From Pseudomonas sp. Teo4 (lineage in GTDB: Bacteria > Pseudomonadota > Gammaproteobacteria > Pseudomonadales > Pseudomonadaceae): DNA of 64,000 bases. The DNA lies in NCBI RefSeq assembly GCF_034387475.1, contig NZ_JAXCIL010000001.1, positions 1,798,001-1,862,000 on the forward strand, given 5' to 3'. The notes under the pieces were generated by a model. It made no database searches. It saw nothing but the letters and a program-made list of their open reading frames with translations, and had not been told where the DNA came from. Made by a program: the position numbers and the translations under genes. Positions 2,101-39,615 of the stretch are shown here, piece after piece. How positions within the stretch are numbered: position 1 is the first letter of the stretch; each line of letters starts with the position of its first letter.

Positions 2101-2118
2101 CATCGTCCGTTTGGTGAA
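2101..2118 (-). promoter_or_regulatory. Shared steroid-regulon motif, DUF1302 promoter copy
   Basis: In gene orientation this reads TTCAC-N6-GACGATG; the right half is perfect and the left half degenerate. It sits between the fadD3 stop and the DUF1302 start, 66 bp before the ATG, so the DUF1302 gene probably has its own promoter. Confidence 0.5.
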
Positions 2119-2133
2119 ACCGCCAAGGCTCTC

Positions 2134-3744
2134 TCAGGCCTGGGCCACCGCCGCTCGCAGGTCGTTCTTGGCCACTTTGTTCGAAGGGTTCAACGGCAGC
2201 GCGCTGAAGAACCGCACCTGGCGCGGCACCTTGTAGTTGGCCATGCGCTCACGGCTCCAGCCGATCAGCTCCTGCTCGTTAAGCTGACGCCCGTCGCGCA
2301 GCACCACACAGGCGCAGCCCACCTCCCCCATGCGCGCATCGGCCACGCCGATCACCGCCACCTGGGCGATGGCCGGGTGGGCCAGCAGCGCCGCCTCGAT
2401 CTCGGCGGGGTAACAGTTGAAACCGCCGACGATGTACATGTCCTTCAGGCGGTCGGTGATGGCCAGGTTGCCGTCCGCATCCAGACGCCCGACATCACCG
2501 GTGTGCAGCCAACCCTCGGCATCGATGGCCTCGGCGGTGGCGGCCGGGTCCTGGAAGTAGCCCTGCATGATGTGGAAGCCGCGCAGGCAGATTTCCCCGG
2601 TCTGGCCCTGGGGCAGGCTTTGGTTGTCGGGGTCGCGAATACTCACTTCGGTGCCCGGCAATGGCCGGCCACTGGTGCTGGCGATCACCTCGGCCGACGC
2701 CCGTGGGTCGCACAAGGTCGCCAGGCCGCCGCATTCGGTCAGGCCGTAGGCGGTGGTCACCACGCTGAAGCCCAGCTCGTTGCGCATGCGCTCGATCAGG
2801 CTCGGCGGAATGCTGGCCGAGCCGGTGACGGCAACGCGCAGGCTCGACAGGTCGGTTTCGGCCAGCCGTGGGTGGGCCAGCAACGACAGGTACAAGGTTG
2901 GTGCACCCGGCAACACGGTCACCCGCTCACGGGCAATGCGCTGGAACACCACCTCGGCATCGAACACGGCATGGGGCAGGATGGTCGCCCCGGCGATCAG
3001 GCAGGTCAGCCAGCCGGCCTTGTAGCCGAAGGCGTGGAAGAACGGGTTGACGATCAGGTAACGGTCACCCGGGCCCAGGCCCAGCACCCGCACGTACTCG
3101 CCGAAGGCGCGAAGGTTCTGGCCGTGGGCACTCATCACGCCCTTGGGCTTGCCGGTGGTGCCCGAAGTGAACAGCAGGTCACAGACCGCTTCGGGCGCGA
3201 TGCACAAGGCGCGGCGCTGGGCGGTAAGTTTCTCGATGGTCGCGGCGCCGACCAGGAACTGCGTGTAGCTCAGGTCTTGGCCAGGCAGTGCCTGATCGCA
3301 ACCGAACACCACCTGGTGCTCCAGAGTCGAGGGACGGTGGGGCGCCAGCAACGCGGGGTAGTCGACGTCCAGGAAACGCTGCTGCACGAATAGCACCCGG
3401 CAGCAGCTGCGGGCCAGTACATCGGCCGCCTCGACGCCCTTCATGCGGGTGTTGATCGGCACCAGCACCGCACCGGCACAGTGGATACCCAAGGCGGCGA
3501 GAATCCACTCGCGGCTGTTGGGCGCCCACACGCCGACCCGGTCGCCTGGCTGGATTCCAAGGGCCATGAGGCCTCGGGTGACCTGCAAGGCCCGCTCGGG
3601 CAGGTCGGCGTAATCCAGACGTTCGCCGTTTTCCTCGATGGCGGTGTGGCCGGCGAAGCGCTGTGCGCTGTCGAACAGCAGGCGGGCAATGCTGGTATGG
3701 GTTGGCGTCTGGTTCAGGCTTTGTTTCATGTAGGGTTCGCTCAT
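2134..3744 (-). CDS. fadD3: FadD3-type acyl-CoA ligase (HIP-CoA synthetase)
   Basis: An intact 536-residue ANL-family enzyme. It has the ATP-binding 'LLFTSGTTGKPKGV' loop, 'YGLTECGG', 'WLHTGDVGRLD' and the C-terminal hinge with 'DMYIVGGFNCYPAEIE', a wording typical of FadD3. FadD3 activates the C/D-ring remnant of steroids, HIP (3aalpha-H-4alpha(3'-propanoate)-7abeta-methylhexahydro-1,5-indanedione), to its CoA thioester. The ATG at 3744 is chosen because GGAG (3753-3756) lies 8 bases upstream. A GTG at 3753 would overlap the kshB stop by GTGA and is the alternative. It is the third gene of the hsaA-kshB-fadD3 operon, which supports the assignment. Confidence 0.88.
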   Translation of the reverse strand: MSEPYMKQSLNQTPTHTSIARLLFDSAQRFAGHTAIEENGERLDYADLPERALQVTRGLMALGIQPGDRVGVWAPNSREWILAALGIHCAGAVLVPINTRMKGVEAADVLARSCCRVLFVQQRFLDVDYPALLAPHRPSTLEHQVVFGCDQALPGQDLSYTQFLVGAATIEKLTAQRRALCIAPEAVCDLLFTSGTTGKPKGVMSAHGQNLRAFGEYVRVLGLGPGDRYLIVNPFFHAFGYKAGWLTCLIAGATILPHAVFDAEVVFQRIARERVTVLPGAPTLYLSLLAHPRLAETDLSSLRVAVTGSASIPPSLIERMRNELGFSVVTTAYGLTECGGLATLCDPRASAEVIASTSGRPLPGTEVSIRDPDNQSLPQGQTGEICLRGFHIMQGYFQDPAATAEAIDAEGWLHTGDVGRLDADGNLAITDRLKDMYIVGGFNCYPAEIEAALLAHPAIAQVAVIGVADARMGEVGCACVVLRDGRQLNEQELIGWSRERMANYKVPRQVRFFSALPLNPSNKVAKNDLRAAVAQA

Positions 3745-3749
3745 CGGCG

Positions 3750-4772
3750 TCACTCCGGAAAGCGGATACGCAGGTGGGGGCTGGTCGGCACGGCCTGGCA
3801 GGCCAGGATCCAGCCTTCGGCCAGTTCGTCGGCATCCAGGGCATCGTTGTGCAGCAACTCGACGTCCCCGCTTTCAAGGGTGCACATGCACGAGGCGCAT
3901 CCCCCTACCCGGCAGGCACTCGGCGGGTTGAGGCCGGCGCGCTGCATGGCGTCGAGCAAGGTTTCGCCGCTGTCGCAGGCCAGGGTGTGCTCCTCGCCAT
4001 CCAGGCGCACCGCCAGTTGCGCGGCCACGGCGGCGTCGCTGTGGGTGACCGGCAACGCTTCGCCCTCGCCAGGCAGCGACACGAAGCGTTCCACATGCAC
4101 CCGCGCAGGCGGCATGCCGAGGCTCTTCAGTGCCTCGACCGCAGCATCCATGAACGGCCCCGGCCCGCAGATGAAGGCCTGGGCATCGATGAACGGCCGC
4201 GCCAGCTCGGCCAGCTGGCCCACCGCCGGAATACCCTGCAGCGAGTCGAGCCAGTGCACCACCTGCAGGCGTTGCGGGTGCACCGTGGCCAGCTGGCGCA
4301 GCTCATCGCGGAAAATCACCGACTGCTCGTCGCGGTTGGCGTAGATCAACAGGATGCGCCCCTGCCCGGCCAGCAGCGCCGAACGCAGAATCGACAGCAC
4401 CGGCGTGATGCCGCTGCCGCCACCGAACAGCAGCAAATCGCCCTGCAGGTCGCGGGGCACGAATACCCCAGCCGGGGGCATCACCTCCAGGGTCTGGCCC
4501 TCCTGCAGCGTTTCGCACAACCAGTTTGAGGCGCGCCCGTCGCGTACCCGCTTGATGGTGACCCGCAGCGGTTCATCCAGCAGCGGCGTGCTCGACAGCG
4601 AATAGCAGCGTGGCAGCCAGCCGCCGTCGAACGGCACGCGCAAGGTCAAAAACTGCCCCGGCTGGTAGCGAAAGCGCTCGCTGAGCGCCTCCGGCACGTC
4701 GAACACCAGGGAGCGGGCATCGGCGGTCTCTTCGACCACCCGCGCCACGCGCAAGGCTAGGTAGTCGGTCAT
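3750..4772 (-). CDS. kshB: 3-ketosteroid 9alpha-hydroxylase reductase, KshB
   Basis: An intact 340-residue flavodoxin-reductase/ferredoxin fusion. It passes electrons from NAD(P)H through FAD to a plant-type [2Fe-2S] cluster and on to the Rieske oxygenase KshA. Visible features are the FAD motif 'RCYSLSS' (residues 55-61), the nucleotide motif 'GGGSGITP', 'ICGPGPFM', and the C-terminal cluster ligands CRVGGCASC plus a distal Cys in 'ILACQA'. The segment 'IYANRDEQSVIF' is close to characterised KshB proteins. The start overlaps the hsaA stop (ATGA), implying translational coupling, and no separate Shine-Dalgarno is seen. No KshA oxygenase is in the window, so the partner must lie elsewhere. 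Service to another oxygenase is the main alternative. Confidence 0.88.
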   Translation of the reverse strand: MTDYLALRVARVVEETADARSLVFDVPEALSERFRYQPGQFLTLRVPFDGGWLPRCYSLSSTPLLDEPLRVTIKRVRDGRASNWLCETLQEGQTLEVMPPAGVFVPRDLQGDLLLFGGGSGITPVLSILRSALLAGQGRILLIYANRDEQSVIFRDELRQLATVHPQRLQVVHWLDSLQGIPAVGQLAELARPFIDAQAFICGPGPFMDAAVEALKSLGMPPARVHVERFVSLPGEGEALPVTHSDAAVAAQLAVRLDGEEHTLACDSGETLLDAMQRAGLNPPSACRVGGCASCMCTLESGDVELLHNDALDADELAEGWILACQAVPTSPHLRIRFPE

Positions 4773-5951
4773 ACGAATGGGTCCGGGTTGGGCAGGCCCA
4801 GCTGCACCGCGCCGAAGCTGCGTCCGTAGTGAAGTTGTTGGCGATATGCCCACGCGCCTGATGCAGGTCGCGGAACAGCCGTGCCACCGGGTTGGTGCTG
4901 TAAAGCCCGAGGCTGCCATGCTGCGCAGCAAGTCGCTGACCCGCTCGGCACAGATGTTGGTGACGTACGAGGACTGGTAGCGGTACAGCAGGCGCGTCTC
5001 GGTGTCGGGGTATTCGCCGGCACGGGCCAGGGTCATGAGGTGTTCGTAGTTGCGTTCGAGCACCAGTTTCAGGCAGTCGACAGTGATCACGGCCTCGGCC
5101 ACGGCGGTTTGCGCGACTGGGTCATCGGCCGTGCGCGCGCCATGCTTGCCGATGTGTTGGGCGGCGTTCTCGCGGAAAGTGTTGATCGCCCCTTGCAAGG
5201 CGCCGATGGCCGAGGTCGATACCGCACGGGAAAACACCTGGGCAAACGGAATCGCGTAGATCGGGTTGGTGTTCACCAGCCGCCCCGGGGTGGCTTCGAT
5301 CTGCCAGTTGTTGGTGCGCTGCACGCGGTGAGCCGGCACGAAGGCGTCTTCGACCACGATGTCATGACTGCCGGTGCCGCGCAGGCCCAGCACGTCCCAG
5401 TTGTGTTCGATGCGGTAGTCGGCGCGCGGCAGCAGGAAGGTGCCGTGTTCGCTGGCGAAGTCGCCGTCGGCCGGCAGGATGCCGCCCAGCAGCACCCATT
5501 GGCAGTGCTCGCTGCCGCTGGAGAAGCCCCAACGCCCGCTGATGCGATAGCCGCCGGGCACCACGGTGACCTTGGCCGACGGCATGTAGGTGGAAGAGAT
5601 CAGCGCATTGTGGTCCTGCTCCCAGACCTCGCGCTGGGCCTCGACCGGGTAGCGCGCCACCTGCCAGGGGTGCACACCCATCACGCCATACACCCAGGCG
5701 GTGGACATGCAGCCCTCGGCGAGGATCATCTGGATTTCAAAGAAGGTTCGCGGGTCGACCTCGTAACCGCCGAAAGCGCGGGGTTGCAGGGCACGCAGCA
5801 AACCTGTCGATTGCAATTCCTCGATGGTCTGGTCGGGGATCCGCTGGTCACGGTCGGCCTGCGCCGTGCGTGTCTTGAGCAGCGGCACCAGGCGCCGCGC
5901 ACGTTCGATCAGTTCGAGTTCTTCCTGGGTCTTTTCTCGCAAGCTGTGCAT
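4769..5951 (-). CDS. hsaA: HsaA-type flavin-dependent hydroxylase, acyl-CoA dehydrogenase fold (two frameshifts)
   Basis: HsaA is the oxygenase component that hydroxylates the phenolic secosteroid 3-HSA to the catechol 3,4-DHSA, using FMNH2 from a separate reductase (HsaB, not seen here). Recognisable segments are 'LLRALQPRAFGGYEVDP', 'SSTYMPSAKV', 'WGFSSGSEHCQW' and 'LGLRGTGSHDIVV', followed in other frames by 'NPVARLFRDLHQARGHIANN' and the C-terminal 'LGLPNPDPFV'. One base is missing near 4899-4902 (T run) and one near 4832-4834 (CC). Restoring both gives 394 residues, the usual HsaA length. ATG 5951 has GGGAGAG seven bases upstream and is preferred over the in-frame GTG at 5954. First gene of the hsaA-kshB-fadD3 operon; the shared motif lies 73 bp upstream. 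Confidence 0.85.
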
Positions 5952-6273
5952 CACTCATCTCTCCCGATCTCGCTGCGCCACTGCGCGAGTTGAGGTCGAT
6001 GATCGGGTTGGGCGAGGCGGGATTCATCGTCAAAGCGGACTAGGGGGTGGTAGGTAGCCTTGGCGAGACCCTGGAGGAGATTACCGAGCCCTTTCCGGGC
6101 TGCGCTGTCGCGCAAAGAACAGTGGCCACTGTGGGAGCGGGCGTGACCACGAAAAGGCCTGTGCAGGTGCTGAAAATGCAGACTGCCCCCATCAGTGCTG
6201 GGTATCCCACGCTGAACTACGTGAACAAGTAACTGGCCTCAGCCAACAGCTTCTTTTTTCATATGGATTTTCG
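5952..6273. other. Intergenic region upstream of hsaA
   Basis: No gene is seen. It holds the hsaA promoter with the shared motif at 6025-6042 and a degenerate REP-like stretch around 6130-6165 (GTGGGAGCGGGC). The neighbouring Rhs orphan converges towards hsaA transcriptionally on the same strand. Confidence 0.5.
6025..6042 (-). promoter_or_regulatory. Shared steroid-regulon motif, hsaA promoter copy
   Basis: Read in gene orientation it is TAGTC-N6-GACGATG, an exact match to the consensus, ending 73 bp before the hsaA ATG. Confidence 0.65.
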
Positions 6274-7403: not shown

Positions 7404-7421
7404 TAGTCCATTAAGACGATG
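7404..7421 (+). promoter_or_regulatory. Shared steroid-regulon motif, 7alpha-HSDH-like SDR promoter copy
   Basis: Exact TAGTC-N6-GACGATG in plus orientation, ending 58 bp before the ATG at 7480. Confidence 0.65.
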
Positions 7422-7479
7422 CCAACCCCGCCCACCCAGCGATAGTCGGCAGCATCCCCATCCCTGAGGAAGCACAGCC

Positions 7480-12319: not shown

Positions 12320-13087
12320 TCAGAAACGCGGCGCACGCACCATCGCGTCCATGCCGCCATCGATGAACACCACGCTGCCGTGGATGAAAGCCGCCTGACC
12401 GGACTGCAGGAACGCCACCAACTGAGCAATCTCATCGGGCCGACCAGCACGCCCCAGCGGCGCGACGAACTCACGCACCGCCTTGCCAAACCGGGCGTCG
12501 TCCAGCGAAGCCTGGTGCAAAGGCGTCTCCACCGCGCCCGGCGCCACCACGTTCAGGCGAATGCCGCGTTTGGCCCAGGCCGGCGCCAAGCGCCGGGCCT
12601 GGTGGGTCACCGCGTATTTGGAGCAGGCATAGGCCACATGCGGCTGGCCCAGTTCGTTGGCTAACGCCAGTGCCTTCGCTTCGTTGCCTTCCAGCATCGC
12701 CGCGGTCATCGGCTGCTGCTCGGCACCGGGCTGGGTGGACGCCACCGAACCAATCACCAGGGCCGCCGGCGCCTGGCCACGGGCCAGTGCATCCTGCAAG
12801 CCATCGAGCAATTGGCTGACGCCAAAATAGTTCACCGCAACGATCAACCCGCAGGACGGTGCGGTCACGCCAACCCCGGCACAACAGACCAGGCCGTCGA
12901 GCACACCGCCACTGAGCTCGAGCACCTGGGCGATGGCCGCCTCGCGCCCTTGCGCGGTGGACAGGTCGGCGATGACCTCGGCGTCGCTGCGGTCGATGCC
13001 GATAACCTCGTGCCCTGCCGCACGCAACGCGTCGCTGACCGCCGCGCCAATGCCCGAGGCACTGCCACTGATAGCTGTAACAGACAT
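12320..13087 (-). CDS. hsdA: 3alpha-hydroxysteroid dehydrogenase/carbonyl reductase, HsdA
   Basis: An intact 255-residue SDR very like Comamonas testosteroni 3alpha-HSD/CR. It has 'ISGSASGIGAA', 'IGIDRSDAEVIADLSTAQGR', 'GLVCCAGVG', 'VAVNYFGVSQLLDGL', the Ser-Tyr-Lys site ('GSVASTQ' then 'YACSKYAVT') and 'LNVVAPGAVETPLHQASLDD'. It interconverts 3alpha-hydroxy and 3-keto steroids with NAD(H), an entry step for bile acids. The shared motif lies 53 bp upstream. It is followed at 13 bp by another SDR and lies next to the LuxR-type regulator. Confidence 0.9.
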   Translation of the reverse strand: MSVTAISGSASGIGAAVSDALRAAGHEVIGIDRSDAEVIADLSTAQGREAAIAQVLELSGGVLDGLVCCAGVGVTAPSCGLIVAVNYFGVSQLLDGLQDALARGQAPAALVIGSVASTQPGAEQQPMTAAMLEGNEAKALALANELGQPHVAYACSKYAVTHQARRLAPAWAKRGIRLNVVAPGAVETPLHQASLDDARFGKAVREFVAPLGRAGRPDEIAQLVAFLQSGQAAFIHGSVVFIDGGMDAMVRAPRF

Positions 13088-13140
13088 AGTGATTCTCCAT
13101 GATGGGAAGGCCCAGTATCGGCAGGACCTGCGCGCGCCGG

Positions 13141-13158
13141 CATCGTCCTGGCGGACTA
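13141..13158 (-). promoter_or_regulatory. Shared steroid-regulon motif, hsdA promoter copy
   Basis: Exact TAGTC-N6-GACGATG in gene orientation, 53 bp before the hsdA ATG and between it and the regulator gene. Confidence 0.65.
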
Positions 13159-13228
13159 AAACCGGCGCGATATGACTGACTTCAGGCCCGACGCGGGACG
13201 GCCATCGCCAGTTGGGGTGGAGGGACTT

Positions 13229-14416
13229 TCAGACGGTCGACGGCCTTGAGCGCAACCTTGGGCTTGCCAATGCCACCACGCTGTTGAGCAGAATGCGCAC
13301 CAGCTCGGTCTGTCGACGCACACCGGTCTTGGAAAAGATTGAACGCAGGTGCGCACGTGCAGTGTTGCGGCGGATGTTCAGCACCTCGGCGGCTTCTTCC
13401 AGGGAAAGGCCGTTGGCCAGCTCCATGGCCAGCGCGGTTTCGGCGCGGGTCAGGTTGAACAGCTGCTTGGTCACCACGTCGCTGGCCAGGGATTTGCTGG
13501 CCGCATCGCGGATATACACCAGCGCCGCCGGCTTGCCTTTTTCCTCGGCCCAGTCCAGTGACGGAATCGACTCCACCACCAGGCCCAGGTTGACCTGCCC
13601 CGAAGGCCGGGTCACCGACATCGCTTCGGCGCTTTTCGGCGCATCCGGGGAGAACGCAGCACGGATCAGGCGCTGCAGCTCGCGGTTGTCACTGGGGTAG
13701 GTCGCCTCCAGGCGCCCACCCACCAGCTTGAGGCCATCGGCGTTGGCCAGAATCTCCTGGGCAACCGGGTTGACCCGCAGCACGCTGCCGCTTTCGTCCA
13801 GCACCAGCGTGGCCACCGACAGGCGGCTGATGGCCTGGGAGTACAGCTCGCTCAGCGACTCGCTGCGGTCCAGCAGGTTGTGCACCTGCAACGCCCGGCG
13901 CAGGTGGGGCAGGAACATCGCGCACAACGCGCGGTCATGGGTCGAGAAATTGGGGGCATGCTTGGGGCGGGTGATGCGAAAACGCAACTTGCCGCCGTCC
14001 GGGGTGGAGATGTCGGCGCCCATCACGTGGTACACCCCTTGCGGGCCGCAGAACATCTTGAAGTAGGCGCTGTGCTCCCATTCGGTCGAGGTCATGATGT
14101 CATCGACGGTGAACACATGGTCGAGCGGCTGGTTGGCGAACGGCGTGTTGGTCTGCGGGTAGGTCATGTAGCTGACATCGCCCGCCCCTTCGATATCACC
14201 GGAAATGATCATCACGCCCATGTCGGGCTGGTCGGGTACACGCAGAATCAGGGTGACGTAGTTGGCCCCGTAGAGGGTGCGGAAGCTGGTCAGTGCCCGG
14301 GCCATCAACTTGGGGTCGAGAGCGCCTTCGTAGACCTCGCCGACCAGGCGGTCGTAATCGGCAAGGTTCAGGCCGAGGGCGGCCAGTGCTTCATGGGTCA
14401 AGACAGCTTTGTCCAC
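13229..14416 (-). CDS. LuxR-family transcriptional regulator, TeiR-like
   Basis: An intact 395-residue protein. The C-terminal 65 residues form a LuxR/FixJ helix-turn-helix ('FNLTRAETALAMELANGLSLEEAAEVL', read in two parts, then 'RRNTARAHLRSIFSKTGVRR'). The large N-terminal part looks like a PAS-type sensor, with 'LSVATLVLDESGSVLRVNPVA' midway. There is no receiver domain, so direct ligand sensing is likely. Length and layout resemble TeiR, the testosterone-inducible activator of Comamonas testosteroni. Its place beside hsdA makes it the best candidate for binding the motif shared by nine steroid promoters; its own upstream region lacks that motif. Family is sure; the TeiR role is inferred. 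Confidence 0.8.
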   Translation of the reverse strand: MDKAVLTHEALAALGLNLADYDRLVGEVYEGALDPKLMARALTSFRTLYGANYVTLILRVPDQPDMGVMIISGDIEGAGDVSYMTYPQTNTPFANQPLDHVFTVDDIMTSTEWEHSAYFKMFCGPQGVYHVMGADISTPDGGKLRFRITRPKHAPNFSTHDRALCAMFLPHLRRALQVHNLLDRSESLSELYSQAISRLSVATLVLDESGSVLRVNPVAQEILANADGLKLVGGRLEATYPSDNRELQRLIRAAFSPDAPKSAEAMSVTRPSGQVNLGLVVESIPSLDWAEEKGKPAALVYIRDAASKSLASDVVTKQLFNLTRAETALAMELANGLSLEEAAEVLNIRRNTARAHLRSIFSKTGVRRQTELVRILLNSVVALASPRLRSRPSTV

Positions 14417-14569
14417 AGTCTTCTCCTAGCTCGGGTAAGGCTTGGGCCTTCCCTTGTTATTTTTATAATTTCGGCTTGGGGGCTCGAAGCCCCTTCGTTG
14501 CATCACATGCCCGCGCCACAGTCTCGCTGGCGGCCCCGGTGCCGACAATAGGTGCAACCGAGTTTATTT

Positions 14570-16974: not shown

Positions 16975-16984
16975 CTCTCGCCCC

Positions 16985-17953: not shown

Positions 17954-18083
17954 GGGCAGCGCTCCTGATCGTGACACACGAACAAAAAAGCCATGGAGCC
18001 ATTCCTCTTGTTCTTGTCAGGCGCCGGGCCTGCGGGCAAGGCCGCAGGGGTAGTGGGATAGTCGGCTGGAGGGCTTGGCGAAA

Positions 18084-18101
18084 CATCGTCCAAATGGCTT
18101 A
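18084..18101 (-). promoter_or_regulatory. Shared steroid-regulon motif, YCF48/MMPL promoter copy
   Basis: TAAGC-N6-GACGATG in gene orientation: right half perfect, left half degenerate; 130 bp before the ATG at 17953. Confidence 0.45.
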
Positions 18102-19244: not shown

Positions 19245-19249
19245 ACTGG

Positions 19250-20458: not shown

Positions 20459-20501
20459 GGTGCCTCCATTCCAGGGCCCGCAGGCCCCGGCGTTGTTCAG
20501 G

Positions 20502-25143: not shown

Positions 25144-26221
25144 TGCGCCACCTCCGCTGTGTCTTGCCAGCTGGGGTAGTCGCTGTATCCCCGGGCGCCG
25201 GGGGTGTAGAGCGTCTTGCGGTCGAACCCGGCCAGTGGCCGGTGGTGGCGCAGGCGCTCGACCAAATCGGGGTTGGCGATGAAGTGGCGGCCGAACGAGA
25301 CCGCCTCGCCCTCGCCTGCCTCCAGCGCGGCGCGGGCCGAGTCACCGTCGAACCCATCGTTGAGAATCAACCCCTGGGGGCCGTGTTCACGCGCCAGGGC
25401 GAAGGCGTCCAGCTCGGGCAGTGGCGAGCGCATGATGTGCAGGTAGGCCAGGCCCAGGGCGCCACCGCCGCGCACAGTGCAGTGGTGGTTTGTGCAGGCT
25501 CATGGTCGTCGATGTCGTTGTACGGGTTGCCGGGGCAAACGCGCAGGCCAACCCGGCCTGCGCCGATGGCAGCGGCCATGGCTTCGAGCACTTCCTTGGC
25601 GAAACGCACCCGGTTCTGCGCGTTGCCGCCGTAACCATCGGTACGCTGATTGCTGCCTGAAGCCATGAACTGCATGGGCAGATAGCCGCTGGTGCAGTGC
25701 AGCTCGACGCCATCGAAACCGGCTTCACGGGCGTTGAGCGCAGCCTGGCGATAGTCACCGATCACCTCGCCGATGCCTTCTGCGCTCAACGCCTCTGGCA
25801 TATCGGCGTCGACCAGGCCGGCGGCGTCGCTGAACAACTGCACACGGGCACGCAGCAGCGACGGCGCCACCGTTGCCGCGCCTTCGGGCTTGTTGTGGTG
25901 GCTGGCGGCGCGGCCCACGTGCATCAGTTGCAGCACGATCTGCCCGCCACGCTCGTGCACGGCGCGGGTCACCTGCTGCCAGGCGGCGATCTGCTCGCGG
26001 TTGTAGATACCCGGGGTGCGGCAGTAGCCCAGGCCACTGGCCGATGGTGCGGTGCCTTCGGCGACGATCAGTCCGGCACTGGCGCGCTGGCGGTAGTACT
26101 CGACCATTTCGCGGCCCGGCACAGCGTGGCCGTCGGCGCGGCTGCGGGTCATCGGGGCCATCACGATGCGGTTGGCCAGTTGCAGTTCGCCCAGGCGCAC
26201 AGGCTCGAACAAGATGTCCAT
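25140..26221 (-). CDS. Old-yellow-enzyme ene-reductase, NemA-like (one frameshift)
   Basis: FMN-dependent alkene reductase: 'ILFEPVRLGELQLANRIVMAP', 'LIVAEGTAPSASGLGY', 'IVLQLMHVGRAASH', 'FDGVELHCTSGYLPMQFM' (the His-x-x-Asn-like substrate-binding zone reads H-C-T-S here), 'DGYGGNAQNRVRF' and 'FGRHFIANPDLVERL'. One base is missing near 25460; with it the protein has 360 residues, standard for the family. First gene of a six-gene minus-strand operon reaching 18304, with the shared motif 91 bp upstream. Likely reduces a C=C bond of a steroid or enone intermediate. The usual active-site HxxN/HxxH appears as HCTS in this copy, which is worth noting. Confidence 0.82.
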
Positions 26222-26312: not shown

Positions 26313-26330
26313 CATCGTCCGTCGAGACTA
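26313..26330 (-). promoter_or_regulatory. Shared steroid-regulon motif, OYE operon promoter copy
   Basis: Exact TAGTC-N6-GACGATG in gene orientation, 91 bp before the ATG at 26221; the divergent copy for the MFS gene lies 53 bp away. Confidence 0.65.
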
Positions 26331-26383: not shown

Positions 26384-26401
26384 TGGTCTGAACAGACGAT
26401 G
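26384..26401 (+). promoter_or_regulatory. Shared steroid-regulon motif, MFS gene promoter copy
   Basis: TGGTC-N6-GACGATG in plus orientation, 61 bp before the GTG at 26463. Confidence 0.6.
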
Positions 26402-26462: not shown

Positions 26463-27791
26463 GTGAACGCATCCCCACCTGTGACCTGGCGTACCCATTA
26501 CGCCCTGCTGGTGCTGGCCAGCATCTACGTCTTCAACTACATCGACCGCCAGTTGATGGCGATCCTGATCGAGCCGGTGAAGCAGGAATTCGGTATCTCC
26601 GATACCGGCATCGGCCTGCTGTCCGGAGTCACCTTCGCCGTGTTCTACACCGTGTTCGGCCTGCCGCTGGGGCGCCTGGCCGACCGCGTCGGGCGCAAAC
26701 CGGTGATTGCCTTCGCCTGCATGGCCTGGAGCCTGATGACCATGCTCTGCGGCATGGCCGGCAGTTTCTTCACCCTGGTGTTGGCGCGCATTGGCGTTGC
26801 CATTGGCGAAGCCGGCGGCACCGCGCCTTCGGTGGCCATGGTTTCCGACCTGTACCCGGCCAACCGACGCTCCACCGCGCTGGCGGTGCTGATGCTCGGT
26901 TCGAGCCTGGGCGCCATCGTCGGCCTGGGCCTGGGCGGCTGGATCGCCCAGCACCATGGCTGGCGCTATGCGTTCCTGCTGATTGGCGCGCCCGGCATTG
27001 CGCTTGGGTTGTTGCTGTTGCTGACGGTACGGGCGCCGGCACCGGTTCGGGTCAGGCAAGCGGTGGACGCACCTGGCGAAAGCTGGGGGCGCACGCTGGC
27101 CGAGCTCATGCGCATGCCATCGTTCGTGTGGCTGGTGCTCACGGGCGGCGCCGCGGCCATCGCCGGCTATGCCATCGGAACCTGGAGTCCGAGCTTCCTG
27201 ATCCGCTCCCACGGCCTGAACATGCAGCAGGCGGGGTTTCTGGTGGGTGTGGTGGGCGGCACTGGCTCGACCATCGGCACCCTGGTGTGCGGCATGCTCA
27301 CCGACCGCCTGGCCCGGCGCGACGTGGGCTGGCAGATAGGCGTGCCGTTGCTGGGCACGCTGCTCAGCATTCCTTTTGCCCTGGCGTATTTCCTCTGGCC
27401 GCAGGGCATTGCCTTCCATATCGGTGACACGCCGGTGCCGCAGGCGTTTCTGTTCTACAGCGCGTTCGGCTTCTTTGGCGTGTGGTGGGCGACGCCGTGC
27501 CTGGGGGCGATCACCCACCTGTTCCCGGCCCATCGCCTGGCCCAGGCCACGGCGGTGTTCGTCATGGCCATGACCTTGCTGGGCGTGGGTATCGGGCCTT
27601 TGTTGATCGGCTTGCTCAGTGACCTGTTCCTGCCGAGCCTGCAGGGGGAATCGCTGCGTTATGCGTTGGCGGCTTCGGTGAGTGTGCTGGTGCTGGCGGC
27701 GGGGTTCCTGGGGATGGCGTTGCCCCGGTATCGGGCACGGATGAAGGGGGTGGCGGGTGAAGATGCGGGTGTTCGGGCTGTGACGGTGTGA
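26463..27791 (+). CDS. Major facilitator superfamily transporter (spinster-like)
   Basis: An intact 442-residue, 12-helix MFS carrier of the inner membrane. It starts with helix 1 'HYALLVLASIYVFNYIDRQL', a wording typical of spinster-type/sphingolipid-like and aromatic-acid MFS proteins. The loop 2-3 motif 'GRLADRVGRKP' and 'RIGVAIGEAGGTAPSVAMVSD' follow. The GTG start has GGAG eight bases upstream. It is monocistronic, divergent from the OYE operon, and carries the steroid motif 61 bp upstream. Uptake or efflux of steroid acids is therefore inferred; the substrate is not readable from sequence. Confidence 0.85.
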   Translation: MNASPPVTWRTHYALLVLASIYVFNYIDRQLMAILIEPVKQEFGISDTGIGLLSGVTFAVFYTVFGLPLGRLADRVGRKPVIAFACMAWSLMTMLCGMAGSFFTLVLARIGVAIGEAGGTAPSVAMVSDLYPANRRSTALAVLMLGSSLGAIVGLGLGGWIAQHHGWRYAFLLIGAPGIALGLLLLLTVRAPAPVRVRQAVDAPGESWGRTLAELMRMPSFVWLVLTGGAAAIAGYAIGTWSPSFLIRSHGLNMQQAGFLVGVVGGTGSTIGTLVCGMLTDRLARRDVGWQIGVPLLGTLLSIPFALAYFLWPQGIAFHIGDTPVPQAFLFYSAFGFFGVWWATPCLGAITHLFPAHRLAQATAVFVMAMTLLGVGIGPLLIGLLSDLFLPSLQGESLRYALAASVSVLVLAAGFLGMALPRYRARMKGVAGEDAGVRAVTV

Positions 27792-28210: not shown

Positions 28211-29588
28211 TTACCGCCCGATCGCCGCGCCGCATCCGCGGTATACATATCCGGCGTGAACTTGCTCTCGTTCAGAATCGGCCCCTTCTTCGCCTCGTTG
28301 GTCATGCCGTAACCGGTGTACTGCCCCGAGTTCAGGTCCATGAAGAACTGCGACCCGGCCTGCCAACCGCTCATGTCGGGGTGGTAGTAGTAGTTGATCA
28401 TGGCGTGCTTCCACAGCTGCCCACGGGCATCGTAGTTGTCGGCCATCACTGCGTTCCAGGTGTCTTCGTCAATGAACAGCACACGCTTGCCATACACGTG
28501 GCGGTAGCCTTCCTTCAGGTCCGCCTCCACCACCCACACCCGCCGCAACTCATAACGCATGAACTCCGGGTTGGGGTGGTTGGGGGTGAGCAGTTCGGCG
28601 TACTTGACGGTGCCGGCATTGGCCTTGAAGGCATTGGCCGGGCTGTAGATTTCGCGCTTGCCCAGCAGTTTCCAGGTGTAGCGCTCTGGCGCGCCGTTGA
28701 ACAGGCGGTCTTCGTCCACCGTCATGGTGCCGTTGGTGCCGATCATCGGCTGGTCGTAGCCGTAGCCAGGCATCTGCCGCACACGGCGGGTCGACGGGCT
28801 GTACGACCAGGCCTGGCGCGCCGAGGTGACGAAGTTGTACGGCTCGTGGGCAATGCTGATCACACCATTGTCACGGGCCGGCTTGAGCGTGGTGTTGTAG
28901 CTCATCGCCTGGATCATGTCCGAGGTCTTGGGTTCGACCGTCGGCGAGTTGGCCTGGGACAGGTTGCGGGCATGGGCGCGGCCCCAGCCGATGCTGCCAT
29001 TGGGCAGTACCGAGGCCAGGTCGGAGATTTTTCTTCGGTGTAGGCCCGTGCCGGCAACTGGTGGTTCCACAGCACTTCCATGCCGTTCTTGGGAATCGGG
29101 AACGGCACCTGGCCCAACCCTTCGATACCCAACCCGTCGTTCACCAGCTTGGCATTCAGAGCATTGTCCATGACCCGGCGGCACACGTAGTCGGGGTAGC
29201 GGAAGTCGCGGTGGCCTGGGTAGATGTTCATCTTGTAGCTGCTGGGGTACTTCTTCAGCAGCGCCTTCTGCCCATCGGTGAGATGCGCCGCGTACTGGTC
29301 CATGTTCTGCGCGGTGATTACCAGAATCGGCTTTTCGTTGGCGTATGGGTCCACCGGCTGGTCACCGGAGAACTTCACATGGTTCCAGCCTGGCACCTCA
29401 CCCAGGTACTTGCCGGTGTACGGCGGGATGGTGCCTTCGGCATTGCCGGCCTTCTCGGCCCCGACGCAGGTCAGGTCCTTGCCGAGCCTGGCAGCTTCGT
29501 CGGGTGGTACCGCCGCGTGGGCGACAACCACCAGTCCGGTGTTGACGGTTAGAGCAGCTGCGAGCATCACACCTTTTGTTGTTTTCAT
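28211..29588 (-). CDS. DUF1329 family outer-membrane-lipoprotein-sorting-like protein (two frameshifts)
   Basis: DUF1329 proteins have a LolB/LppX-like beta fold and are encoded with DUF1302 and MMPL genes. They are thought to carry hydrophobic compounds through the periplasm. ATG 29588 follows AGGAGG; a signal peptide ends at 'VVVAHA'. Family features are 'LGKDLTCVGAEKAGN', 'YPGHRDFRYPDYVC', 'PAYEPYNFVTSARQAWSYSP'-like text, 'RQMPGYGYDQPMIG' and 'HVYGKRVLFIDEDTW'. One A is missing in an A5 run near 29033 and one G near 28224; with both the end becomes 'DAARAIGR' and the length 459, normal for the family. It is the last gene after the CoA ligase but has its own motif 65 bp upstream. Confidence 0.85.
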
Positions 29589-29653: not shown

Positions 29654-29671
29654 CATCGTCCGGAGAGACTA
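29654..29671 (-). promoter_or_regulatory. Shared steroid-regulon motif, DUF1329 promoter copy
   Basis: Exact TAGTC-N6-GACGATG in gene orientation, lying in the gap between the CoA-ligase stop (29677) and the DUF1329 ATG, 65 bp upstream of the latter. Confidence 0.65.
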
Positions 29672-32541: not shown

Positions 32542-33742
32542 GCTGTCACTCCTTTCTTGCCGTCAGGCAGGCCAAGCACGCGCTTGGCGATGACATTGAG
32601 CTGCACTTCCGACGCACCGCCGGAAATGGTCAGGGCGTAACTGTTCAGCCAGGCGCGGGTCACAGCCAGCTCGCGCGCGCTGAAGCCTTCGGGTTGCCAG
32701 CCGAAGGCATGGCCACCCATGACATCGAGCAGCACCTCGAACTTGTCGCGTTCCTGCTCGGTGTGCACCAGCTTCATGATCGCCATCAGCCCGCTGATGT
32801 CGTCGCCACCGCGCCCCTCCTCGGCCATGCGTTGCACCGTCAGGCCGTAGGCGTGTTCATCCATGGCGCACGCCACGGCACGCGCCTGCAGCGCCAGCTC
32901 GCCTTGGCTGCGCGGCTGCGGCAGGTACTCGCGCAGCAGGCCCAGCAGGTCGAAATGCGACGGCAGGCTGAATTCACCGAACTTCGACATGGCCTTGCGT
33001 TCGTGCTGCAGCAAGTACTTGCCCAGGTTCCAGCCACCGTTCAGCGGGCCGATCAGCTGGCTCTTGGGCACTTTCACGTTGTCGAAGAACACCTGGCAGA
33101 ACGCCGACTTGCCGCTGATCAGGTCGATCGGCACGGCCTTCACCCCAGGGCTGCGCATGTCCAGGACGATCAGGCTGATGCCTTCATGCTTCGGCGCCTG
33201 GAAGTCGGTGCGCACCAGGGCATACATCCAGTCAGACTTGTCACCGTAGGACGTCCAGATCTTGCTGCCATCGACCACGAAATGATCACCGGCGTCCCGC
33301 GCCGCCATCTTCAAGCTGGCAAGATCAGAGCCGGCGTTAGGCTCGGAGAAACCCTGGCACCAGCGCACTTCACCCCGAGCCATAGGCGGCAGCAAGGTAC
33401 GCTTCTGTTCTTCGCTGCCGTAGGCCAGCAGCACCGGCCCGAGCATCCAGATACCCAGGTTGATTTGCGGCGGCCGGCAGCGCAGCCTGCGCATTTCGCT
33501 TTCCAGCACCGCCACCTGCTCGGCGCTCAGGCCGGCACCGCCGTATTCTTCCGGCCACTCGGGCAGAACCAGCGCTTGTCGCGCATGCGCTCGAACCACA
33601 GGCGCGCATCGTCATTGGGGAACTGCGGTTGGCTGGCGCCCCACACCACATCGCCTTCGCCCATGGCGACGCGCATGGACGGCGGGCAGTTGGCTTCCAG
33701 CCAGGCACGGGTCTCGTGCCTGAATTGCTCGATCGTACTCAT
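32538..33742 (-). CDS. Acyl-CoA dehydrogenase, partner subunit (one frameshift)
   Basis: FadE-type protein with 'WPEEYGGAGLSAEQVAVLE', 'CQGFSEPNAGSDLASLKMAA', 'KIWTSYGDKSDWMYALVRT', 'VPKSQLIGPLNGGWNLGKYLL' and a C-terminal 'LTISGGASEVQLNVIAKRVLG'. A G is missing near 33566 (GG to GGG restores 'RWVLPEWPEEYGG'), giving 401 residues. It overlaps the downstream dehydrogenase by 4 bp, the expected partner in an alpha2beta2 enzyme. The start at 33742 is 79 bp from the preceding gene's stop, with a hairpin between. Confidence 0.82.
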
Positions 33743-33756
33743 CAGATGCAACCCTC

Positions 33757-33786
33757 GGCCCCGCTCCGGCCTGTGCCGGAGGGGCC
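33757..33786. terminator. GC-rich hairpin between two acyl-CoA dehydrogenase genes
   Basis: GGCCCCGCTCCGGC pairs with GCCGGAGGGGCC around a 4-base loop. On the plus strand it is followed by TTTCGTT; on the minus strand, the direction of the genes, no U tract follows. It may attenuate or stabilise the operon mRNA rather than end it. Confidence 0.4.
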
Positions 33787-33821
33787 TTTCGTTGGAAGGG
33801 CTGAACGGCGCGGTGGCGCCC

Positions 33822-34988
33822 TCAGCGCTGGGTACGCGGCATGCCCAGGCCGAACTGGGCGATCAGCTCGCGCTGGATCTCGTTGGTGCCGCCGCCAAAG
33901 GTCACGGTGACCGAGGCGCGCAGCTCGTACTCCAGGTCGCCGTGCAGCACGGCGGCAGCCGAACCACCGCGCACCACGCCATTGGCGCCGACGATGGCCG
34001 ACAGCTTGCGCAGGATCTCGATGGCCGACTCCGAGCCATACACCTTGGTGGTCGAACTCAGCGCCACGTCCATGTGCTCGCGCTCAAGGTTGGCGGCAAT
34101 GCGCAGGTTGATCAGGCGCATGGCTTCGAGGCGCGCATAGCACTCGGCCAGCGAGCTGCGCACCCAGGCCTTGTCCATGGCCCGGCGGCCGTGCTCGTCC
34201 CGGGCGCGGGCCCACAGGTAGACCCTGCGGAACAACCCCGCGACCTTGTCCGACCATGAACCCAGCCCGAGGCGCTCGTGGTTGAGCTGGGCAGTGATCA
34301 GCTTCCAGCCGCCGTGCAGCTCTCCCACCAGCATGTCCTTGGGCACGCGCACGTTGTCGTAGTAGGTGGCGGCGGTCGGGTTGCTGGTGGTGGGGATGAC
34401 AGTGCTGGAGAAGCCCGGCAGTTGGGTGTCGAGAATCAGGATCGACCCCCTTGTGCCGTGCCTGGCTTGGGTCGGTGCGGGCGGCCAGCCAGATGTAGTC
34501 GGCCGATTCGGCGCCCGAGGTCCACAGCTTGTTGCCGTTGACCACGAAGGCATCGCCGTCCAGCCGGGCGCTGGTCCTGAGTACCGCCAGGTCACTGCCG
34601 GCATCGGGTTCGGAGTAGCCGATGGCGAACATGATTTCGCCTGCGGCGATACCCGGCAGAAAACGCGCCTTCTGTTCGGGGCTGCCATGCTCCATCAATG
34701 CCGGGCCAACGGTGCTGATGGTCACGAATGGCAGCGGTGCCCCGGCGATGTTGGCCTCTTCGAAGAAGATCAACTGCTCGGTGGCGGCATAGCCCTGGCC
34801 GCCGTGGGCCTTGGGCCAGCCCACCGCGAGCCAGCCGTCGCGGCCCATCTGGCGCACGGTGTTGCGGTACAACTCGCCGCCCTCCTGGCCGCGCAGTTGC
34901 TCGCGCAGCTCGGGGTCATCAAGGCCTGGAAGTAATCGCGCACTGTGCGGCGCAGCGCATGTTGCTCGGGGGTGAGATCGACGAACAT
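33822..34988 (-). CDS. Acyl-CoA dehydrogenase of the igr-like side-chain set (frameshifts)
   Basis: FadE-type protein from 'VDLTPEQHALRRTVRDYF' through 'VGWPKAHGGQGYAATEQLIF', 'AIGYSEPDAGSDLAVLRTSA', 'KLWTSGAESADYIWLAARTD', 'VPKDMLVGELHGGWKLITAQ' to the terminal 'VTFGGGTNEIQRELIAQFGLG', which contains the usual FAD-contacting GGGTNEI motif. The frame breaks near 34923 (one base) and at a G run near 34448-34452 (two missing or one extra). The length is then 388-389. It follows the ltp2-like gene by 10 bp. With the gene at 36586 it matches the ChsE1/ChsE2 (FadE28/29) pair of the actinobacterial igr operon; the assignment of which is which is open. Confidence 0.8.
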
Positions 34989-34998
34989 GCTGCGCTCC

Positions 34999-36177: not shown

Positions 36178-36194
36178 GCAACTGCCTCCGGTGG

Positions 36195-36614
36195 TCATGG
36201 CAGCACCAGCGCGACCGTGCCGGTCACGTGGTTGCCCATGGAGTTCTTGCCGCTCAGGGTGACTTCCACTTCGCGGGTTTCGGGGTCCTGGCGGGTTACC
36301 TGGCCGTTGAAGGTCATGCAGTCGCCTGGGTAGTTGGGCACGCCTAGCTTGATCTTCAGCGAGGTGAAGCGAGCCAGCGGGCCGGCCCAGGCTTCGACGA
36401 AACGCTGCACCAGGCCATTGGTGGTGAGGATGTTCATGAACACATGGGGCGAACCCAGTTCACGGGCGGCATCCAGGTCGTGGTGGCCGGGGAAGTAGTC
36501 GCGCGTGGCAATCGCCCCGCCCGCGATCAATGCCACGGTGATCGGCACCTCAAGCGTCGGCAAGGCTTCGCCTGGGCGCACGTCTTCAAAGCGCTTGGTG
36601 TTCTTCGAGGTCAT
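36195..36614 (-). CDS. ChsH1-like MaoC hydratase subunit
   Basis: An intact 139-residue hot-dog protein with 'IAGGAIATRDYFPGHHDLDAA' (the R-D-x-x-x-x-H-H stretch of the hydratase motif), 'SPHVFMNILTTNGLVQRFVE' and the C-terminal 'SMGNHVTGTVALVLP'. These are close in wording to ChsH1, which pairs with ChsH2 to hydrate the 17(20)-enoyl-CoA side chain. It overlaps the end of the upstream acyl-CoA dehydrogenase by 29 bp and is followed after 17 bp by the ltp2-like gene. Confidence 0.83.
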   Translation of the reverse strand: MTSKNTKRFEDVRPGEALPTLEVPITVALIAGGAIATRDYFPGHHDLDAARELGSPHVFMNILTTNGLVQRFVEAWAGPLARFTSLKIKLGVPNYPGDCMTFNGQVTRQDPETREVEVTLSGKNSMGNHVTGTVALVLP

Positions 36615-37721
36615 ATTTCCATCCCAGCTTGTCGTTGTCGCTCAGCCAGTCGCCGAGCCGTTCCAGGCAGGCCGCCGCACCACCCAGGGCAATTCCCAGG
36701 GCGCGGCTCCAGTAGAGATAACGGTGAATCGGGTACGTCAGGTCGACGCCAATGCCGCCATGCACGTGCTGGGCGACGTGGCCGATGCGGTGCCCCGCTT
36801 CACATGCCAGGTACGCCGTGGCCAATGCCTCGGAAGGTGCCGGCAGGCCGGCGTCCAGGCGGTAACACAGCTGCCACAAGGTGCTGCGCAGGGTTTCCAG
36901 GGCGATATGGGCGTCGGCCATGCTCATCTGCACCGCCTGGAAGCTGCCGATACGCCGCTCGAACTGCTGCGCCGCTCGCCCGCATAGTCGACGGTGCGGC
37001 GGATGTGCTCGGCGCTGACGCCCAGCTGCAAGGCGGCCAGGGCGGCGATGGCGCGTGGTTCCAGCCAGGCCAGGGCGGCGGCTGGCAGAACGCGGTCGGC
37101 GGTAACTTGCAGCCCCTCCACGTGAAGATCGGCAATAGCTTCGCCGTGGGTAAGCACACCGGCCTCGCGCCTCATTGCAGCTGCGCCGAGGTCAAGCAGC
37201 AGCAGGCGCACCTGGTCATCCACCCGCACTGGCACCAGCGCGGCCTGCGCCTGCCCGCCCAGGGCCAATGCGGCGACACGGCCATCGACCCGCCAGCCTT
37301 CGGCACAGGCGCTGGCGCTCAGCTCGATGCCATGGGCTGCGCTGAGGCCATCCAGGGACAGGCTCAACAGCACCTCGCCACGGGCAGCCTTGGCCGCCAG
37401 CTCGGCGGCGTCACCCAGGGCAAAGGTCGCCAAGGTCGCGGCCGCCAGCTGATGCCGCCACAGCGGCACCTGGGCAAGGCTGCGGCCCTGGGCCTGCAGC
37501 ACCAGCATCAGCTCGGTCATGCCCAGGCCGCCGCCACCTTCGCGCTCGGGAATGGCCAGCGCATGCAGGCCGGTTTCCAGGCACAGCGCCCACAGCGGCG
37601 CCATCATCGCCTTGCCTGCGGTGTCCCACTGGCGCAGGTAGTCATCGTGGCAGTGGTCGCTGAACAGGCTGTCGGCCATCTGCTCGATGGCGCGCTGGTC
37701 TTCGCTCAATTCGAAATCCAT
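36586..37721 (-). CDS. Acyl-CoA dehydrogenase of the igr-like set, second subunit (one frameshift)
   Basis: FadE-type but divergent. It has 'FELSEDQRAIEQMADSLFSD', 'AIPEREGGGGLGMTELMLVL', a poorly conserved middle domain, and after the break 'QMSMADAHIALETLRSTLWQ' and 'AQHVHGGIGVDLTYPIHRYLY'. One base is missing near 36975; the repaired length is 378. The middle domain lacks the clear FSEPxAGSD-type flavin segment of its partner at 33822, as expected for the non-canonical subunit of a heterotetrameric ChsE-type enzyme. It overlaps the chsH1-like gene by 29 bp. Confidence 0.8.
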
Positions 37722-37733
37722 GCTGTCGCCCTC

Positions 37734-38707
37734 CTACTCGACCACAGGCCGGAACAACGGCAGGGTCAATTGTTCGTCGAAGGTTTCGAACGTCACCTCC
37801 AGGCGCTGGCCGATCTGCAGTTGCTCGCGCTGCACGCCGACCAACCCGGCAATCAGGCGCACGCCCTCTTCCAGCTCGATCAGGCCGATGGGGTTGGGGT
37901 GATCGAAAGGCGGCACTTCTGGGTAATGCATCACCACGAAGGAGTACAGGCTGGCGCGCCCGCTGGCTTGCACGGTGTCCCATTCGAAGCTGTGGCACTG
38001 CATGCACACCGGCGCAGGCGGGTGGCGCAGGGTCGCGCAGGCGCTGCAGCGCTGAATCAGCAGCTTGCCTTCGGCGCAGCCTTCCCAGAAGAACCGGGTG
38101 TCGTCGCTGACCCGGGCATCGGCCGCTTGGCCTTGACCGGCGCCGCCGGGGCCTGGGGCTTGGCTGCCGGCTGTGCGTTGGCCGGGCGGAACTTGAACAC
38201 CCGGAACAACAGCTCACCCACCGGCTCGTCGCCTTCGGGCTTCTTGACGAAGTGGCTCATCACCAGGGTGACGAAGAAACCGGTGCCCAGGGCGGTGGTC
38301 TTCTCGTCGCCGACCGCATCCAGGCGCGTGGTGTAGTAAAGCTTTTCACCCAGCCGCACCGGGCGGGTGAAGCTCAGCTCGGAGTTCACCGCCACCACCG
38401 AGGCGTAGCCGTATTCCTCGATCAGCTTGAGCACTTCGTAGGGGTTCTGGTCGGTGGAGCCTGGTGGGTAGTTGTTGGCGTGCAGCCCTTCCATGGTCCA
38501 CACCTGGAGCATGGCCGGCGGGGCGATCAGTTCCTCGTAGGGGCTGCTCTGGGCGAAGGCCGCGTCGGTGTAGAGCGGGTTGTCGATGCCCATGATCTCG
38601 CACCACTGGCGGATCATCGGCGCGTTGACCGCATCCCAGGCATACACCCGGCCATATTCGCGGCCCACCAGGGCGCGCACACTGGATAGCAATTGTGGAT
38701 CAGCCAA
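37734..38707 (-). CDS. ChsH2-like MaoC (N-terminal) - DUF35 (C-terminal) protein (one frameshift)
   Basis: Residues 1-170 are MaoC-like ('REYGRVYAWDAVNAPMIRQW', 'PPAMLQVWTMEGLHANNYPP', 'SELSFTRPVRLGEKLYYTTR'), followed by an Ala/Pro linker. Then, after one missing C near 38140, comes a DUF35 unit ('FFWEGCAEGKLLIQRC', zinc ligands C-x2-C in 'CSACATLRHPPAPVCMQC', and an OB-fold with 'SFVVMHYPEVPPFDHPNPI'). Repaired length 324. This is the domain order of ChsH2, whose DUF35 part holds the aldolase Ltp2. Second gene of the operon, followed after 12 bp by the dehydrogenase. The domain order is the reverse of the protein at 18304. Confidence 0.83.
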
Positions 38708-38764
38708 AGTCGTCTCCTTCAGCGTGAGGGCGGCGAGCCGATGCGGCCACCGCTGGGTGGTCGA

Positions 38765-39539
38765 TCAGGTGGGTTGAACCTGCGCCGCGTCGAGAAACGC
38801 CGGGCGCTCGCCGCCGCCATGCAGCAGCAGGTTGCAGCCGCTGGCATAGCTGGCCAGCGGTGAGGCGATGTACAAGCAGGCATTGGCGATATCGCTGGCA
38901 GCGGCCATGCGCCCGGCCGGAATACCAGCACTGACGGCGGCGATGCCCTGTTCGCTGCCGTAATGCAGGTGGGCCTGGTCGGTCAGCACCAGGCCTGGGC
39001 TGACCGCGACCACGCGCACCTTGGGCGCCCACTCCACCGCCAGCGATTGCACCAGCGCCAGCACCCCGGCCTTGGCCGCACCATAGGCGGCGGTGCCAGG
39101 CGATGCGCGCAAGGCACTGATGCTGCCGATGAAGACGATGCAACCGCCCTGCGCCTGGCCCTGCATCAGCCGGTTGGCGTGTTGCGCGGCATTGAGCGGG
39201 GCGATGAGGTTCAGGCGCAGGATGCTCTCGTGAAAGCGCGGCGAGGCCGTGGCGGCGACTGCCGAAGGGCTGCCACCGGCGTTGTTGATCAGCACGTCGA
39301 GGCGGCCGAAGTCACGTTCGATGGTGTCGAACAGCGCCTGCAGCGAATCGCCGTCGCGCACGTCGGTGGCGATGAACACCGCGCTGCGCCCGTCCACGCT
39401 CGGCAGCTGCTCGGTGTGCGCTGCGGGCACAGACGATGACCTGCGCCCCGGCCGCCAGAAAGCCCTCGGCAATACCTGCACCGATGCCCTTGCTGCCACC
39501 GGTGACGAGCACCACCTTGCCACTGAAATCAAGCCCCAT
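38765..39539 (-). CDS. Short-chain dehydrogenase/reductase (frameshifted)
   Basis: Classical SDR: 'GKVVLVTGGSKGIGAGIAEGF', 'RLDVLINNAGGSPSAVAATA', the Ser site 'VFIGSISALRASPG', 'AAYGAAKAGVLALVQSLAVE', 'VVAVSPGLVLTDQAHLH' and 'ASGCNLLLHGGGERPAF'. The frame shifts once between about 39410 and 39430. Here the change fits one extra or two missing bases, unlike most breaks in the window. Length about 257-258. It heads the minus-strand side-chain operon and shares its motif (39598-39615) with the divergent crotonase gene. Substrate unknown; a beta-hydroxyacyl-CoA or ring hydroxyl are candidates. Confidence 0.78.
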
Positions 39540-39597
39540 TGCATGCTCCTTGGTTTGCTGTCCCGGTCGACTCTAGAGGCTATGGGTGGGCCATTCT

Positions 39598-39615
39598 TCG
39601 TCTGAACGGACGATG
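39598..39615 (+). promoter_or_regulatory. Shared steroid-regulon motif in the SDR/crotonase divergent promoter
   Basis: TCGTC-N6-GACGATG, the most symmetrical copy; flanking bases extend the inverted repeat (CATTCTTCGTC / GACGATGAATG, one mismatch). It is 61 bp before the crotonase ATG and 58 bp before the SDR ATG on the other strand, so it could serve both. Confidence 0.65.

Follow-up and report, generated by a model that had tools for sequence, protein, structure and literature searches.

Which regulator governs the steroid degradation genes of Pseudomonas sp. Teo4, and through which DNA site? The stretch analysed here, called the window, comprises 64,000 nucleotides (NCBI RefSeq assembly GCF_034387475.1, contig NZ_JAXCIL010000001.1, positions 1,798,001 to 1,862,000). 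A preliminary description, made from the letters alone, had noted in it nine copies of a motif, TAGTC-N6-GACGATG, at promoters of a steroid island and had ascribed them to a single regulator, with the LuxR-type protein encoded at 13229-14416 as the simplest candidate. Our analysis supports that ascription: with a probability of roughly 85%, the motif is the operator of this TeiR/TesR-type LuxR-family activator, and probably also that of a paralogue encoded at C1:1773627-1774777. The link to the LuxR protein is drawn from co-occurrence across genomes, a conserved DNA-binding domain and promoter geometry.

All nine 18-mers were confirmed, each with the halves and the 6-bp spacer reported for it:

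2101-2118, minus strand: candidate operator TTCACC-AAACG-GACGATG with a weak left half, 5' of a DUF1302 gene and followed 19-21 bp on by a predicted -10 box; rank 18 in the model scan of the genome described below.
6025-6042, minus strand: candidate operator TAGTCCGCTTTGACGATG, 5' of an HsaA-like/PaaE-like reductase frame (5954-3750) and an acyl-CoA ligase gene (3753-2134).
7404-7421, plus strand: candidate operator TAGTCCATTAAGACGATG, 5' of genes for an SDR (7480), an FAA-hydrolase (8324), an acetaldehyde dehydrogenase (9000) and an aldolase (10072).
13141-13158, minus strand: candidate operator TAGTCCGCCAGGACGATG, 5' of an SDR gene (12320-13087).
18084-18101, minus strand: variant candidate operator TAAGCCATTTGGACGATG (TAAGCC), heading a YCF48-MMPL-TeiR run.
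26313-26330, minus strand: candidate operator TAGTCTCGACGGACGATG, 5' of an Oxidored_FMN (old yellow enzyme) gene.
26384-26401, plus strand: candidate operator TGGTCTGAACAGACGATG, 5' of an MFS transporter gene (26463-27791); divergent partner of the 26313 copy.
29654-29671, minus strand: candidate operator TAGTCTCTCCGGACGATG, 5' of a DUF1329 gene that is split over two frames here.
39598-39615, plus strand: candidate operator TCGTCTGAACGGACGATG, a near-perfect dyad, 5' of an enoyl-CoA hydratase-like gene with its start at 39677.

The distances to the gene starts, given earlier as 53-91 bp and once 130 bp, were reproduced from Shine-Dalgarno-preceded starts, the eight copies besides 2101 lying 70/73, 58, 53, 130, 91, 61, 65 and 61 bp upstream. 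For the 2101 copy, a Shine-Dalgarno-preceded ATG was found 66 bp downstream, opening a frame that in this assembly runs for about 50 codons. GACGATG is present in all nine copies, as described, but its invariance is partly circular because the copies were chosen on that word.

GACGATG occurs 29 times in the window (11 on the plus and 18 on the minus strand), and the nine copies could in principle be a chance selection of a common coding word. Genome matches to loose patterns lend this some colour: TAGTC-N6-GACGATG with at most one mismatch gave 87 matches (29 for the reversed-pattern control), and TVGTCYNNNNRGACGATG with two mismatches gave 710, near its control of 701, so that both were rejected as unspecific. 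A selection by chance is nonetheless hardly credible, being contradicted by reversed-pattern controls, by a -10 box, by conservation across classes and by an out-of-sample model. A -10-like hexamer (NAnnnT) stood 19-21 bp past GACGATG in 9/9 of the described copies, compared with 0/20 of the other occurrences in the window (Fisher p = 1e-7); since the box was first noticed on these same copies, its test in other genomes, given below, is the cleaner one. Tightened to TAGTC-Y-N5-GACGATG, the exact motif matched 10 times in the 6.5-Mb genome, five times in the window and five times at other steroid loci (neighbouring or kstD). Many matches within unrelated genes, named at the outset as evidence against an operator, were thus returned by the loose patterns and not by the refined motif. 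The out-of-sample model, R1, used sequence alone, spanned 53 positions and was trained on 95 sites from other genomes, with the genome of strain Teo4 and that of its relative G208 excluded. Applied to the Teo4 genome, where 150 of 1706 first-look candidates were scored, it placed island sites in the top 11 ranks and in 16 of the best 19, with all nine window copies ranking 18th or better; the three non-island matches in the top 19 had E values of 0.11 to 0.44.

The nine window copies are real, but they are not the full set, as the genome holds seven more and one weak site outside the window (genes are named by family matches; no NCBIfam match reaches its curated cut-off, and KshA_C passes in Pfam):

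C1:1477681: site 5' of a flavin reductase gene related to HsaB (hsaB-like).
C1:1477716: weak site (GACGAGG), 5' of an aldehyde dehydrogenase gene.
C1:1480861: site directly 5' of a KstD-like gene.
C1:1773562: site 5' of a DUF1329 gene; the same-strand run reaches kshA at 1770984-1771584.
C1:1778324: variant TAAGCC site, 5' of a second YCF48-MMPL-TeiR module.
C1:1790840: site directly 5' of an HsaC-like gene.
C1:1795814: site 5' of an SDR gene.
C1:1795839: TGGTC copy, directly 5' of an HsaD-like gene.

Judged by these family names, the sites found in the genome precede genes of steroid catabolic or uptake type. The matches foreseen in the preliminary description were thereby found directly 5' of the hsaC, hsaD and kstD homologues and, for kshA, ahead of the DUF1329 gene whose run continues into it. 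The weak site at 1477716 was absent from the R1 list. No -10 box was found at four exact TAGTC-N6-GACGATG matches that lie elsewhere and have a G after TAGTC (1118295, 2218879, 2884128 and C2:2240674).

The architecture of the putative promoters was examined in 122 distinct sites from 12 genomes, taken from chosen stretches around clustered matches, with scattered matches left out and fully symmetric sites counted on both strands. The consensus, TAGTC-Y-N4-N(mostly R)-GACGATG, forms an imperfect dyad with its GACGATG half on the promoter side. The search pattern left no choice at motif positions 1, 3-6 and 12-18; at the free positions, A was found at position 2 in 85/122 and a purine at position 11 in 108/122. 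In the matches around 42 TeiR loci, where position 6 was not imposed, it was a pyrimidine in 94 of 95. The strong downstream signal consisted of A at position 40 and T at position 44, the second and last bases of a -10 hexamer from position 39; NAnnnT started at position 39 in 77/122 sites and at 38-40 in 108/122, compared with a mean of 15.0 and a maximum of 22 at 34 control offsets. Setting position 39 as -12 puts the predicted start at about position 51, some 33 bp past the motif, with the centre of the dyad (8.5) at about -42.5. Downstream at 40-180 bp, a Shine-Dalgarno-preceded ATG with an open frame of at least 150 codons followed 83 of 121 sites, compared with 182 of 2420 random positions. 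No -35 element was recognisable in the 122 sites, positions 19-38 carrying at most 0.15 bits, and help from an activator is therefore expected. With the start so predicted, the sites show both features of a class II activator-dependent promoter, an operator near -41.5 to -42.5 fixed relative to the -10 box and the lack of a consensus -35 element. A repressor operator overlapping the -35 region is a very improbable alternative: a protein at -42.5 could block polymerase, the GACGATG half of its site presumably covering the -35 region, but the unrecognisable -35 element calls for an activator, and TeiR and TesR are described as positive regulators.

About -42.5 is also the position of the lux box in class II activation by LuxR-type proteins, which likewise lack a -35 element at their promoters and carry a C-terminal GerE domain. 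The present motif differs from the lux box in its sequence, its asymmetric halves and its fixed orientation, and the putative sensor is GAF/PAS-like rather than of the acyl-homoserine-lactone type. Fully symmetric sites (TCGTC...GACGATG on both strands) were observed in L101, L104 (Polaromonas), L124 (G204) and L127 (G242), where one operator may serve two divergent promoters.

To follow motif and regulator across genomes, we surveyed 249 Pseudomonas genomes for a TeiR homologue at E <= 1e-30. A homologue was present in 40, and at least five exact motif matches were found in 38 of these 40 compared with none of the 209 others, which had at most three each; the TeiR-bearing G223, whose genome is 73% complete, had three. 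In a phylum-level survey of 398 genomes, at least five matches occurred in five alone (that of strain Teo4, G317, G337, G554 and G288). These are five of the six genomes with a TeiR match of at least 280 bits, the sixth being G573, and 48 genomes with weaker TeiR relatives (at most 210.5 bits) had 0-2 matches. Around the 42 TeiR loci the pattern matched 95 times and the reversed pattern 0 times, with no match in three short loci (L038, L053 and L065). Across eight whole TeiR-bearing genomes, seven of them outside Pseudomonas, 21, 19, 8, 9, 9, 21, 15 and 15 matches were counted, compared with 0, 0, 0, 0, 1, 0, 0 and 0 for the controls; part of these matches are scattered and may be due to chance. 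The motif recurred in TeiR-bearing genomes of Thauera, Zoogloeaceae, Comamonas, Polaromonas, Vibrio and Glaciecola.

The proposed binder lies among steroid catabolic genes, in a run with the following features:

13229-14416, minus strand: TeiR/TesR-type regulator, 395 amino acids, with a LuxR-type (GerE) DNA-binding domain at residues 322-375.
14570-17166, minus strand: MMPL/RND-type transporter that includes a sterol-sensing-like stretch; its gene, in two frames, precedes the regulator gene in the same direction.
16985-17977, minus strand: YCF48-like protein, the first gene downstream of the 18084 variant site.

The C-terminal GerE domain was detected with E 6e-6, above the Pfam cut-off. In nine homologues, with hosts ranging from Pseudomonas to Vibrio and Comamonas, 41-43 of the 43 residues of the DNA-binding core were identical, whereas identity in the sensor part was 37-67% (37-58% in the six homologues from outside Pseudomonas). 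A more distant Pseudomonas group had 32-33 of 43 core residues, yet the genomes of G242 and G204 in it keep the motif. Because the structure model was of moderate quality (predicted local distance difference test, pLDDT, 70; predicted template modelling score, pTM, 0.46) and Foldseek matched GAF/PAS sensors at low TM-scores, the GAF-like plus PAS-like fold of the sensor half is a tentative assignment. A sequence search of the PDB with the regulator gave no match.

We propose that a regulator dimer would be centred at about -42.5 on the dyad, the near (GACGATG) half of its site replacing the -35 element, and that a steroid or steroid metabolite loading the sensor half would lead to recruitment of RNA polymerase to the -10 box 20 bp downstream. 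From the sequences we infer binding by TeiR, a role as activator and not as repressor, the nature of the inducer, the operon structure and self-regulation. The YCF48 - MMPL transporter - TeiR-type regulator module occurs twice in the genome (window 12320-18101; L009 12092-18341), each time with a TAAGCC variant site in front and a standard site just behind the regulator gene. The two left halves that had been called degenerate, at 2101 and 18084, are indeed off consensus, but they are conserved variants: TCACC, the left half at 2101, recurred in L028 and in G208, and of 27 copies of TAAGCC-N5-GACGATG in the fetched loci, two belong to the genome of strain Teo4 (one per module) and the others lie in 23 of the 32 loci L024-L055, in G208 and in G042. 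In those of the 23 loci that were listed, the TAAGCC variant, with a -10 box, preceded the regulator gene by about 2.7 to 4.1 kb; a YCF48 gene between variant and regulator was confirmed in strain Teo4 and G208 alone. Seven more of the 32 loci had TAGGCC, TAACCC or TACTCC in place of TAAGCC; the one in L051 is near the gene of the regulator. No variant site was seen in L026 or L038. That one gene should keep a deviation from the consensus suggests an autoregulatory site tuned to be weaker, and the 18084 variant is probably one, through which the regulator would activate itself, probably more weakly.

Published work on Comamonas bears on this assignment. The regulator is 46% identical to a homologue, TesR, in Comamonas sp. 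NoAH. The contig of that protein also holds an HsaA homologue, probably assignable to tesA1 or tesA2, and, upstream of TesR and in its orientation, an HsaC (TesB) homologue. The fetched NoAH stretch contained eight sites, lying 5' of the HsaC homologue, the HsaA homologue, two SDR genes, two MFS transporter genes (starts 146 and 186 bp from the sites) and a DUF1329 gene; the site at 167408 had no downstream open reading frame under the rule used. In strain TA441, three clusters (tesB-tesR, tesA1-tesG and tesA2-ORF18) are reported to require TesR for their induction (PMC6895838). In NoAH a site thus heads one TesR-dependent cluster, tesB-tesR, and the HsaA homologue probably marks a second. TeiR/TesR of Comamonas testosteroni is, like its homologue in the window, a LuxR-type regulator within a steroid cluster, to which we add a proposed operator, a paralogue and a self-regulatory variant. 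Induction by TeiR is said to seem to require a testosterone metabolite (PMC8700777). Pseudomonas stutzeri Chol1 also has two TeiR-like genes in its steroid cluster, and deletion of one delayed growth on cholate (PMC8399759); no binding site was seen in that review, which calls the mechanisms largely unknown. Our literature search found no operator for TeiR/TesR, with the limit that the original description of TeiR lay outside it and that a subscription paper may report one; the bare heptamer GACGATG was uninformative as a query.

Several observations weigh against TeiR as the binder. G225 has a TeiR homologue of 37% identity and 0 motif matches, and G573 has four homologues of up to 410 bits and 0 exact matches. 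Wherever the motif co-occurs with TeiR it co-occurs with the pathway as well, so that TeiR cannot be fully separated from the accompanying steroid genes. In addition, Comamonas TeiR is described as polar, membrane-bound and active as a kinase (PMC6678751), which misfits a plain DNA-binding activator, and reviews name RepA, RepB, HsdR and PhaR as further Comamonas regulators. The site could accordingly belong to another transcription factor that always accompanies steroid genes, with TeiR acting upstream, for example as a sensor kinase. We regard this as unlikely: the DNA-binding core of TeiR is conserved together with the operator, the dyad position suits a LuxR-type activator, and no second regulator family was seen among the part of the open reading frames of window 1-40000 that was scanned. 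As for a kinase, Pfam found no kinase domain in the window protein, and the fold search returned GAF/PAS-type sensors.

G573 itself contains near-motifs with one or two mismatches, altered left halves and -10 boxes, and the DNA-binding domain of its regulators is changed, so that the operator code may have drifted there. Two divergent near-motifs, TAGTCCACCCGGACGAAG, were observed in L140 (G573) at 4739-4807, about 3 kb before a TeiR-type gene, and are possibly such a shifted code. In two of five G573 stretches, the families listed by a direct-repeat search included none that carries the motif. HsaA (NF045629) was tried as a phylum-wide marker of steroid degraders and rejected: 211 of 398 genomes matched, none at the curated cut-off, and it therefore cannot prove a pathway without TeiR. 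Among ten genomes with an HsaA match of at least 339 bits, four had no TeiR match at E <= 1e-20 (G642, G478, G505 and G460) and 0, 1, 0 and 0 motif matches, a scarcity that is suggestive only.

With TeiR retained as the preferred binder, we consider it likely that its helix-turn-helix and the asymmetric TAGTC-Y-N5-GACGATG, 20 bp 5' of a bare -10 box, form a common switch for the 9,10-seco steroid pathway among those beta- and gamma-proteobacteria that carry TeiR. This switch would be near-constant while the sensor diverges to 37%, as if the DNA code were fixed for transfer of the cluster between hosts, and the Pseudomonas regulator promoter would keep a separate, weakened version. The KstR and KstR2 operators of Actinobacteria similarly mark a steroid regulon with a single operator family; those proteins are described as TetR-family repressors, unrelated to TeiR, and their operator sequence is not known to be related to the present motif. 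No TetR-family match appeared among the part of the open reading frames at the steroid loci that was scanned. To the preliminary description the analysis adds the two TeiR-type paralogues, the variant site before the regulator run, the fixed -10 box and the beta-/gamma-proteobacterial spread. PMC6895838 cites the view that only C. testosteroni strains have tesR-like genes, which this spread contradicts; a 2021 review (PMC8399759) had already named the Chol1 genes. A defined operator makes the question of steroid regulation, open for about twenty years, testable, including a direct test of DNA-binding activator versus membrane kinase. It also allows the regulon to be read from sequence and start sites to be predicted, and offers parts for steroid biosensors.

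A perfect palindrome, CATCGTCAAAAGTGACGATG, was observed outside the steroid loci in L014 (C1:3366632-3366651), with a -10 box at the expected place on neither strand. The island also contains split genes, at window positions 378-2083, 15641-16974, 18313-22061, 23292-26221, 28216-29588, 32727-34956 and 36589-40459, and at C1:1770984-1771584. Of 48 matched G208 open frames, 18 map to at least two frames here, although a few of these rows may be antisense; the splits reflect either assembly indel errors or real decay. The 734-residue HsaA-reductase frame at 3750-5954, by comparison, corresponds to two separate frames in G208.

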